From: Candidatus Bacteroides merdipullorum
GTDB taxonomy: Bacteria; Bacteroidota; Bacteroidia; Bacteroidales; Bacteroidaceae
Direction of reading: 5' to 3'
Length of the DNA: 64,000 nucleotides
Assembly: GCA_019116045.1 (NCBI GenBank)
Contig: DXCK01000046.1
Coordinates: forward strand, 20,549 to 84,548
Positions 28,145 to 64,000 of the stretch are shown here, one piece after another (the first letter of the stretch is position 1; each line of letters opens with the position of its first letter). The translations under genes were made by a program, and so were the position numbers. The notes below the pieces were generated by a model. It was not told where the DNA came from and did not search any database. It worked only from the letters and a program-made list of their open reading frames with translations.

Positions 28145-28176
28145 CAAAGCTAAAGTTTTTTCCTGAGAATAACAAA
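28145..28176 (-). promoter_or_regulatory. Bacteroidetes-type promoter of the sufT-like gene
   Basis: On the minus strand, TTTG (28176-28173), 20 nt, then TAGCTTTG (28152-28145), matching the TTTG-N19-21-TAnnTTTG consensus exactly. It lies 28 nt upstream of the chosen ATG. Confidence 0.75.
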
Positions 28177-61549: not shown

Positions 61550-63073
61550 TTAGTGTTTGAAGTGGCGGAACCCGGTGGTCACCATTGCGATTCCGTGTTC
61601 ATTGCAGTAGTCAAAACTCAGTTGGTCCTTGATGCTTCCCCCCGGCTGGATGACCGCCGTAATGCCTTCATTGCCGGCAATCTCTACGCAATCGGGGAAG
61701 GGGAAGAAAGCATCGCTTGCCATGACAGCCCCGTGCAGGTCGAAGCCGAAGCTCTTGGCCTTTTCGATGGCCTGCTTCAGCGCATCTACGCGGCTGGTCT
61801 GTCCCACACCGCTGGCCAGCAGTTGCTTGCCTTTGGCCAGCACGATGGCATTGGATTTGGAGTTCTTCACAATCTTGTTGGCAAAAAGCATGTCTTCTAT
61901 CTCGGCCTGTGTGGGTGCCTTCGTCGTCACCGTCTTCAGGTCGTCGGGTGTTTCTACCTTCAGGTCACGTTCCTGTGCCAGCACACCGTTCAGCAGAGAG
62001 CGGAACTGCTTCTTGGGCAGCTCGACCGGCTTGCGCACCAGGATGATGCGGTTCTTCTTCTGGCCCAGCACCTCGAGGGCGTCTACGTCATAATCCGGCG
62101 CGATGATGACTTCAAAGAAGATCTTATTGATTTCTTCGGCCGTCTCTTTGTCCACCACAGTGTTGGTGATGAGCACCCCTCCGAAAGCTGAAACCGGGTC
62201 GCCGGCCAAAGCATCTTTCCACGCCTCCAGCAAGGTGGGACGCGAAGCCAGGCCGCAAGCATTGTTGTGCTTCAAGATGGCGAACGTCGTTTCCTGGAAC
62301 TCATCAATCAGGTCTACCGCCGCGTTGATGTCCAGCAGGTTGTTGTAAGAAATCTCCTTGCCATGTATCTGGTCGAACATCTGCTCCAGGTTGCCGTAGA
62401 AATAGCCCTTCTGATGCGGGTTCTCGCCATAGCGCAACGCCTTCTGGTTGTTGGCCGAGCAGCGGAAGGCCGTGCCTTCTCCCCCGTCGAAGTAATTGAA
62501 GATGGCCGTGTCATAGTGCGACGACACACCAAAAGCCTCTTTGGCAAACCAACGGCGTTCCTCCAGCGTCGTGTTGGCACCCCGCTCCATCAGGATGTCG
62601 CGCAAGGGCTGGTACTGGGCTTGTGAAGCCACGATGACCACGTCGTTGAAATTCTTGGCAGCGGCGCGGATGAGCGAGATGCCGCCTATGTCGATTTTCT
62701 CGATGATGTCAGCCTCCGATGCACCGCTGGCCACTGTTGCCTCAAACGGATAAAGGTCTACGATGACCAGGTCTATTTCGGGAATCTGATATTTTTCAAT
62801 CTGCTGACGGTCCTGCTCCAAAGCACGGCGGCACAAGATGCCTCCGAAGATTTTGGGATGCAACGTCTTCACACGCCCGCCCAAGATGGAAGGGTAGGTA
62901 GTCAGGTCTTCCACTGCCTGGCAGGGATAGCCCAACGATTCGATAAACTGGCGGGTGCCGCCTGTAGAGAGAAACTGCACGCCTTCTTCATGCAGTTTGG
63001 TGATGATTTCATTCAGTCCTTCTTTGTGATAGACGGAAACCAGCGCTGTCTTGATTCTTTTTGTCTCGGACAT
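61550..63073 (-). CDS. purH: Bifunctional AICAR transformylase / IMP cyclohydrolase
   Basis: 507 aa, full length. N-terminal MGS-like cyclohydrolase domain (KTALVSVYHKEGLNEIITKLHEEGVQFLSTGGTRQFIE, GGRVKTLHPKIFGGIL) and C-terminal transformylase (ENPHQKGYFYGN, FAILKHNNACGLASR, VDALKQAIEKAKSFG, AIVLAKGKQLLASGVGQTSR). Last two steps to IMP. A -7 box TACCTTTG reads on the minus strand at 63127-63120, about 47 nt upstream of the ATG. Confidence 0.97.
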   Translation of the reverse strand: MSETKRIKTALVSVYHKEGLNEIITKLHEEGVQFLSTGGTRQFIESLGYPCQAVEDLTTYPSILGGRVKTLHPKIFGGILCRRALEQDRQQIEKYQIPEIDLVIVDLYPFEATVASGASEADIIEKIDIGGISLIRAAAKNFNDVVIVASQAQYQPLRDILMERGANTTLEERRWFAKEAFGVSSHYDTAIFNYFDGGEGTAFRCSANNQKALRYGENPHQKGYFYGNLEQMFDQIHGKEISYNNLLDINAAVDLIDEFQETTFAILKHNNACGLASRPTLLEAWKDALAGDPVSAFGGVLITNTVVDKETAEEINKIFFEVIIAPDYDVDALEVLGQKKNRIILVRKPVELPKKQFRSLLNGVLAQERDLKVETPDDLKTVTTKAPTQAEIEDMLFANKIVKNSKSNAIVLAKGKQLLASGVGQTSRVDALKQAIEKAKSFGFDLHGAVMASDAFFPFPDCVEIAGNEGITAVIQPGGSIKDQLSFDYCNEHGIAMVTTGFRHFKH

Positions 63074-63545
63074 GATTCAAATATGATTATATAAATACGC
63101 GTAATTAATAATAGTCCCGCAAAGGTACGAATTTTGTCGTTTAGCCTGCATAGGAAAAAGCGTTAAAATTGGAGGCAGGTGGAAAGTTTGTGGGGTTTGC
63201 AGACAGGCATGGGGTGCAAATCTTCCCGGCGTTTCAGGAGGGCGAGGTGCTGTAAGGGCGTCCGTTTGTTGTCAGAACAACATGTCCGGAAGTAAAATAT
63301 CAGTATAACCATTGCCCCCAAAGTCGTTCCAAATTCGCTTTTTCTTCGTCTCTAAGCAAACGAACTTGGTACGACTTTGGTACGAGCCGGGTACGAGCCG
63401 GGTCGGAATCCGGAAGCTTGCGGCTTCGTTGGTTATATTTGTTGACAGATGGGCGTTTGTTTTTTTGTGACTTCCGGGGACGGTTTGAGAGTGTGTTTTT
63501 TGGGGGAAGGTGCTGGAAATTTTAGGGATAAAAAAAGTTCTAAGT
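63074..63545. other. Intergenic region upstream of purH
   Basis: Holds the purH promoter region, a G/T-rich stretch of no recognisable function (63170-63270), the third TACGAGCCGGG repeat (63324-63406) and a G-rich stretch near 63475-63520. No gene is supported; the 63272-63580 minus ORF reads through the repeat. Confidence 0.6.
63324..63406 (+). repeat. Dispersed TACGAGCCGGG repeat, copy 3
   Basis: GTCGTTCCAAATTCGC leader, GCAAACGAACTTGGTACGAC, then a variant unit TTTGGTACGAG and CCGGGTACGAGCCGGG. Same order and orientation as copy 1. Confidence 0.8.
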
Positions 63546-63577
63546 TTTGATTGTTTAGGAATAAGTATGTATATTTG
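63546..63577 (+). promoter_or_regulatory. Bacteroidetes-type promoter driving the structured RNA
   Basis: TTTG (63546-63549), 20 nt, TATATTTG (63570-63577): an exact consensus match. Predicted start near 63584, about 50 nt before the long hairpin. No terminator stands between it and the hairpin apart from a weak AAGGCGTTGCCTT...TTTTTT sequence. Confidence 0.8.
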
Positions 63578-63634
63578 CAAGCGAAGTGCAAGGCGTTGCC
63601 TTCAAACCTTTTTTGCGAAATAAAAAATTGTAAG

Positions 63635-63812
63635 AAGCGTTGTGCTTCATTCTTGTTCTTGAGAACCTAGGAAATTTTCAACTACACAGGAATGACACAG
63701 TCGGTTCCTACGCTGGTTTCCAGCGTGGGTCTGCTGTCTATTACCATTTGTGTAGTGGGTTTTCCTAGGACCTTCAAGAACGATGAATAGCACGCAGTTC
63801 CACGCTTTTTTT
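63635..63812 (+). ncRNA. Long rod-shaped structured RNA, 6S-like candidate
   Basis: About 178 nt that fold into a single interrupted rod. Paired blocks from the outside: AAGCGT/ACGCTT (63635, 63802), GTTCTTGA/TCAAGAAC (63655, 63774), CCTAGGAAA/TTTCCTAGG (63666, 63761), ACTACACA/TGTGTAGT (63681, 63749), and an apical stem CCTACGCTGG/CCAGCGTGGG (63707, 63720) with a TTT loop. The outer stem is followed by a T-run (63806-63812), like an intrinsic terminator. Size and shape recall 6S RNA, but I cannot match sequence to a known 6S family; a 5' leader controlling the next gene is the alternative. Confidence 0.6.
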
Positions 63813-63857
63813 ATGTTTAAAATTCCATTGGGGACTGCAGGAACAAATTTTTTTTGC

Positions 63858-64000
63858 ATGAAAATCGAAGTCTGTGAAAAATGCAATCAAATGCTGCATC
63901 TGATAAAAGTAGTAGATGAAAAAAGTGCAATCATGGAATGTAAGCATTGCCATAATCGGAAATTGTATTCGTACGATGAAAAAGAGTTCCCTAAAAATAT
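63858..64000 (+). CDS. Small zinc-ribbon protein, 3' end outside window
   Basis: From the ATG at 63858: MKIEVCEKCNQMLHLIKVVD then EKSAIMECKHCHNRKLYSYDEKEFPKN, open at the window edge. Two CxxC pairs (CEKC, CKHC) 24 residues apart form a zinc ribbon. An in-frame ATG at 63813 would add 15 residues (MFKIPLGTAGTNFFC) directly after the T-run. It lies just downstream of the structured RNA and may depend on read-through of it. Function unknown. Confidence 0.6.
   Translation, partial: MKIEVCEKCNQMLHLIKVVDEKSAIMECKHCHNRKLYSYDEKEFPKN

Follow-up and report, generated by a model that had tools for sequence, protein, structure and literature searches.

Few regulatory RNAs are known in the Bacteroidota, a dominant phylum of the human gut. 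Riboswitch and attenuator leaders occupy the 5' leader of an mRNA, where they form mutually exclusive pairings, pair beside the start codon and carry a terminator-like hairpin followed by a U-tract. The cspA-type thermosensor is a long leader, and in the CopA-CopT system paired hairpins convert via loop-loop contact from a kissing complex into an extended duplex. BIME/REP elements, in turn, are paired palindromes whose two hairpins are also complementary to each other and which occur in several copies per genome. In the Bacteroidales, a long rod-like RNA is represented by the Bacteroidales-1 RNA (RF01693), which we take to be the 6S RNA of this order. The B. thetaiotaomicron transcriptome has revealed that Bacteroides possess a 6S RNA (PMC7366714). 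Finally, two palindromic candidate RNAs from Bacteroidetes, HMP_4078 and HMP2_4205, of 109 and 132 bp, have been described, the former near phage integrase and D5 domains (PMC8040213).

Here, we describe a structured element located near the end of a 64,000-nt stretch of Candidatus Bacteroides merdipullorum DNA (hereafter, the window). With riboswitch and attenuator leaders it would have in common a position in the 5' leader of mRNAs and pairing beside the start codon, as well as putative mutually exclusive pairings and a candidate terminator-like hairpin with a U-tract; unlike them, it shares no Rfam family, precedes 45 unrelated families of downstream genes and has an architecture in which kissing loops would give way to a rod. 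In contrast to CopA-CopT, both hairpins lie in cis within one leader, and the likeness is one of architecture. A strong G-U bias, a promoter of its own and a fixed distance to the ATG distinguish the element from BIME/REP palindromes. The Bacteroidales-1 RNA is of comparable length and likewise rod-like, but has no detectable similarity to the present element, which, unlike it, is multicopy and followed by genes at a fixed spacing after the rod. HMP_4078 and HMP2_4205 are also palindromic and from Bacteroidetes; they differ in length and may overlap with the present family (PMC8040213).

Sequence comparison establishes a family with covariation at the RNA level, a kissing 3' hairpin (P8), an ATG at a fixed distance and pairing potential for two foldings. 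The family is best read as novel mRNA leaders of a switch-like kind, and the explanation that we prefer overall, with a probability of roughly 0.6, is that of a promoter-bearing cis leader of the Bacteroidia which precedes accessory genes and would switch between folds. That the element acts in cis as a structured mRNA leader is very probable; for the two-state mechanism, we would put the odds slightly below even.

Architecture of the locus

The promoter, TTTG (63546-63549)-N20-TATATTTG (63570-63577), matches the Bacteroides consensus exactly on the + strand, as claimed in the preliminary description of the locus. The pattern TTTG-N19..21-TAnnTTTG occurs five times on the two strands of the window, versus 0.59 expected, and the copy at 63546 is the sole match on the + strand; the four other exact promoters, at positions 28145, 34280, 43498 and 59287, are all on the - strand. 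We infer a transcription start at about 63580-63585.

The 180 nt between 63633 and 63812 are predicted to fold into a hairpin of -79.8 kcal/mol (z -8.17), a value equalled by none of 200 shuffled sequences, and the wider stretch 63580-63820 gives a folding z of -7.95. This bears out the long hairpin of the preliminary description, whose further details, the UUU apical loop, the seven Ts at 63806-63812 and the ATG at 63858, 46 nt beyond the T7 tract, were all accurate. Its extent had to be revised: conservation reaches from the promoter to about 63843, so that the element is longer than the hairpin first outlined, with the hairpins P0 and P8 on either side previously unlisted. In order, the element comprises the promoter, the 5' hairpin, the rod and a second hairpin with a kissing loop, followed by the ATG (Table 1), and the structured RNA totals approximately 260 bases. 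An A/T-rich linker ending at 63632 joins P0 to the rod. Homologues display the same succession of TAnnTTTG box, short hairpin and rod, but most of them carry a different hairpin at the position of P0; in the main subfamily, this hairpin is as a rule succeeded by GACAT. The end of the window, position 64000, is also the end of the contig and falls inside the zinc-ribbon gene; the operon beyond lies outside the sequence.

Table 1. Features of the element and its surroundings, in window coordinates.
Feature	Coordinates	Strand	Basis
Bacteroides-type promoter	63546..63577	+	exact match; homologues keep TAnnTTTG box here
5' hairpin P0, GAAG-U-GCAA GGCG UUGC-CUUC	63583..63603	+	read from sequence
Rod core, model R1	63633..63808	+	Infernal 154.5 bits; covariation
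P1 of rod	63634-63640/63802-63808	+	model R1
P3 of rod	about 63656-63662/63773-63780	+	model R1
P4 of rod	about 63666-63674/63760-63769	+	model R1
P5 of rod	63682-63687/63750-63755	+	model R1
P7 of rod	about 63707-63716/63720-63729	+	model R1
Alternative 5' hairpin H1: A (63648-63656) with B (63684-63694); loop = P4 5' strand	63648..63694	+	A-B test z -4.9, 0/300
Alternative 3' hairpin H2, GCGUGGG...UUCCACGC	63722..63808	+	C-D test z -2.8, 0/300
Pairing of C with D within H2; loop = P4 3' strand	63738-63748/63782-63790	+	
Kissing segment CAGTTCC in rod-base bulge	63795..63801	+	pairs with 63831-63837; dealt test 0/500
T7 tract 3' of rod / H2	63806..63812	+	sequence
3' hairpin P8 (TTCC...GGAA), kissing loop GGGACTG at 63831-63837	63823..63843	+	arms co-vary, 84 copies
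Start of downstream gene, small zinc-ribbon-like protein with two CxxC pairs	63858..64000	+	ORF list

A multicopy family in the Bacteroidia

A DNA search of 101 related genomes uncovered homologues in 22, several of which carry more than one copy. With scoring limited to 9 candidates in each genome, the covariance model of the rod, R1, which was built from 26 sequences, produced matches in 105 of the order's 289 good genomes. Fuller scoring of 13 named genomes yielded 3-15 copies apiece, counts in which a few of the weakest matches represent the opposite strand of the same site; the E-values of the family rest on a shortened calibration. Among the matches listed by a pattern scan, which form a biased sample, the carriers that have names include Bacteroides, Phocaeicola, Parabacteroides, Alistipes, Prevotella, Segatella, Xylanibacter, Barnesiella and Muribaculaceae. 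In a sample of the phylum (248 genomes), there were 14 carriers in all, with distant relatives in other orders of Bacteroidia.

Known families were sought in Rfam 15 and in open-access papers. No Rfam 15 model matched the element at E up to 10 in window positions 63540-63830, nor in any of 15 homologous loci with E up to 1 or 17 distant loci at the gathering threshold, and no description of the family was found in the open-access literature searched. The window element is one copy of a large Bacteroidia family absent from Rfam 15. At the permissive threshold, Rfam returned chance hits only; one of the chance matches in the window, to Sarbecovirus-5UTR at 63058-63168 on the - strand, scored 18.5 bits, where the gathering score is 150.

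The same genome contains a short degenerate second copy (L002, G000:C35:7895-8022), which has lost most of the rod; what it keeps is the stem at the base, a kissing pair (CAGTTTC/GAAACTG) and, about 53 nt further on, an ATG, before a gene for a secreted protein. In B. bouchesdurhonensis (L232, G364:C1:797000-814500), two copies, both scoring 180.0 bits, lie 12 kb apart and are probably the result of duplication.

Covariation of the rod

The rod is strongly covarying. In alignment A1, which was not fitted to the model, 96.2% of the cells are paired and 19 of the 45 pairs display two-sided changes, with 132 two-sided cells versus 39 in shuffles. In alignment A4, fitted to the model and containing 88 distinct sequences, the paired fraction reaches 98.2% and two-sided changes number 506, as opposed to 141.6 +- 14.2 in shuffles, whereas pairing falls to 32-44% in slid controls. 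Hence, the compensatory changes that the preliminary description had proposed to look for in related genomes are abundant. Helices of the rod also stand out in the duplex-energy test, with z of -15.8 for P3 and -17.9 for P5. This strand has 421 G-U cells and only 31 A-C cells, and the selected molecule is therefore its RNA, rather than a double-stranded palindrome.

Candidate alternative folds

The single-rod form originally described is upheld as far as the rod itself is concerned; however, two foldings are supported, of which the rod is one. Segments within its internal loops are mutually complementary: in the 5' half, A complements B, as C does D in the 3' half. Across 31 sequences under 80% identity, the duplex energies of both A-B and C-D beat 300 of 300 re-deals (Table 1), whereas the rod-type controls were flat (A-D, -0.2; B-C, -1.1). 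The two halves folded alone also beat shuffles, with a mean z of -2.1 for the 5' half and -4.2 for the 3' half; in the window copy, the corresponding values are -20.2 kcal/mol (z -2.6) and -30.7 kcal/mol (z -3.7). In distant families, for which segments were cut automatically and the wrong helix was taken in some rows, the A-D control was positive as well; the case for A-B and C-D is accordingly drawn from the 31 sequences. The inner stems of the alternative hairpins, X and Y, exhibited no excess over dealt controls; the closing pair of Y reads GGC/GCC and GGU/ACC in distant copies, but is G-A in 17 of the near ones, and is not counted as support. H1 and H2, which make up the two-hairpin fold, have as their loops the two strands of the rod helix P4.

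Given that A-B crosses P3-P5, the RNA would either alternate between two hairpins and the rod or form a compact pseudoknot. In the latter case, a single pseudoknotted leader for ligand or protein binding would be organised around a four-way junction of P2, A-B, P6 and C-D, with loops paired via P3-P5. The helices of both folds are supported, all of them by covariation, and A, B, C and D correspond mostly to internal loops left unpaired in the rod, so that, as far as the use of bases goes, almost every helix could form together with the others, compatible with such a fold. Nevertheless, crossing the approximately 21 bp of P3-P5 with linkers of 0-2 nt is sterically hard, and two bases at the end of P5 are also claimed by A-B. 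We regard the pseudoknot as unlikely, if the strongest of the competing explanations, and favour alternation.

We infer that the RNA switches between the two foldings. In the two-hairpin fold, H2 (GCGUGGG/UUCCACGC) together with the U-tract would resemble an intrinsic terminator and would conceal CAGUUCC. When the rod forms, the 5' arm of H2 would be held within the apical hairpin, leaving CAGUUCC available for a kissing contact with the P8 loop next to the ATG. Expression of the downstream gene would thus be lowered by one fold and allowed by the other, and the complementary P4 loops could join the two hairpins and start the conversion to the rod. The rod of the window copy, at -79.4 kcal/mol, has a large advantage in stability over the two hairpins, at -54.2 kcal/mol, and switching would therefore need kinetics or assistance; a metabolite, a protein, temperature or the speed of transcription are candidate triggers that might tip the balance. 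The diversity of the downstream genes, unusual for a ligand-sensing leader, counts against this explanation.

The 3' hairpin, the kissing pair and the U-tract

In the window copy, CAGUUCC of the rod-base bulge is complementary to GGGACUG of the P8 loop, and other copies carry CAGUACC/GGUACUG, CAGUGCC/GGCAUUG or CAGUCUC/GAGAUUG in the same places, a complementarity exceeding that of all 500 re-deals among copies. The arms of P8 have a duplex energy of -6.01 across 84 copies, compared with -3.60 when dealt (z -10.9). The kissing partner is absent in some copies (L005, L009, L070, L023 and L222). In L005, L009, L070 and L246, P8 is replaced by a common sequence 3' of the rod (CTTGAACCGAA ... GATACC ... 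AGTTCCC) without a kissing partner; these copies may have recombined, or may be where another element ends.

The T-run had initially been described as the end of the hairpin. A U-rich tract is indeed conserved, with a mean of 6.0 Ts in 10 nt in copies of the near family (42% with 7 or more) and 7.25 in distant copies, against a baseline of 27% in both cases; however, the tract is broken in many copies of the main family, and we rejected the idea that the family as a whole ends at a fixed intrinsic terminator, many homologues being devoid of an unbroken U-run. In the window, the terminator-like features are the GC-rich base of H2 and U7, and a simple terminator scan did not flag this site because the H2 loop is long. 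In L012, L013 and L026, a hairpin with a T-run, resembling an insulating terminator, lies directly 5' of the leader promoter.

Position before genes

In 62 of the 77 copies, an ATG is situated 40-63 nt beyond the rod, typically at about 50 nt, and a second downstream gene is found on the same strand at 49 of 58 loci. The preliminary description had raised, as its second option, a leader or attenuator of the zinc-ribbon gene, and it is this option that the conserved spacing and the compensatory changes support, along with a homologue from Phocaeicola coprophilus (L081): its zinc-ribbon gene is preceded by the same leader, and the encoded protein is 36% identical to that of the window over 47 aa (E 8e-13).

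A stand-alone, trans-acting small RNA, transcribed from its own promoter and ending at the U-tract, could account for the stable hairpin and the T7 of the window copy, as well as for the longer U-tracts of distant copies, some of which lack an ORF of 50 aa or more starting within 90 nt. The fixed ATG spacing, the covariation of P8 beyond the U-tract, the retention of the leader with orthologous genes and the broken U-tract of many copies all argue otherwise, and we consider a small RNA improbable.

Downstream genes and spread of the probable leader

The 73 downstream proteins fall into 45 homology groups, 32 of which are singletons, and include lipoproteins and other secreted proteins, zinc-ribbon proteins, DarT, a beta-lactamase and many proteins of unknown function. 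Pfam, PADLOC and PHROG scans of the downstream genes disclosed no common function, and the 45 families share no common pathway. In different genera, orthologues are preceded by almost the same leader (RNA identity up to 100%), but unrelated genes, too, can follow leaders that are as much as 98.8% identical, indicating that the module stays with its gene but also spreads. In close copies, homology is confined to the promoter and the leader and ends before the gene, the flanks being unrelated.

In records of plasmids and mobile elements, the leader is located between mobilisation genes and a cargo gene. In pBUN1 (NZ_AP019725.1, L243:4036-4253), the order is MobV, leader and blaMUN-1, which starts about 50 nt after the end of the rod; in another mobile record, a primase/mobilisation region is followed by the leader and a DarT-like gene. 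More generally, the upstream gene resembles a MobV relaxase in about 10 of 77 loci (36-97% identity to the L103 relaxase), and Mob_Pre was detected upstream in five loci.

Such sharp homology limits, the nearly identical leaders before unrelated genes, the several copies per genome, the double-dyad layout and the mobilisation genes just upstream of some copies would also be expected of a mobile or recombination element acting at the DNA level, akin to the paired palindromes of BIMEs or MITEs. A pure DNA element, with no strand preference in pairing, was rejected on account of the G-U bias, and the constant placement of promoter and ATG is a further point against this alternative, which we judge to be even less probable than a small RNA. 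Mobility of the module and function of the RNA can, however, both be true.

That the element is a 6S RNA or a 6S paralogue, as first proposed and as its single-rod shape and similar length would allow, is rejected at the level of sequence, with a negligible residual probability: the 6S model RF00013, the check suggested at the time, found no match, nor did RF01685 or RF01693, at E up to 10 in the window, a separate Bacteroidales-1 RNA (RF01693) is present elsewhere in the genome (G000:C108:1-128; 135.5 bits, above the cut-off), and the element occurs in 3-15 copies per genome, each preceding a gene.

Returning to the switch-like cis leader, its presence before genes for lipoproteins, the anti-phage protein DarT and the beta-lactamase MUN-1 would point to shared control of accessory genes and mobile-element cargo. 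Tentatively, two-state leaders throughout the class might constitute a portable expression module, composed of promoter, switch RNA and kissing hairpin, in which a cis pair of kissing hairpins would convert to a rod and one common signal would govern unrelated accessory, defence and resistance genes. The kissing pairs, P8 and the two folds provide testable predictions of such a leader. Two distant copies, L227 and L260, precede DHFR/RibD-like genes and lie near rteR small RNAs, with BTnc005 also present in L227, surroundings that suggest CTnDOT-like elements.
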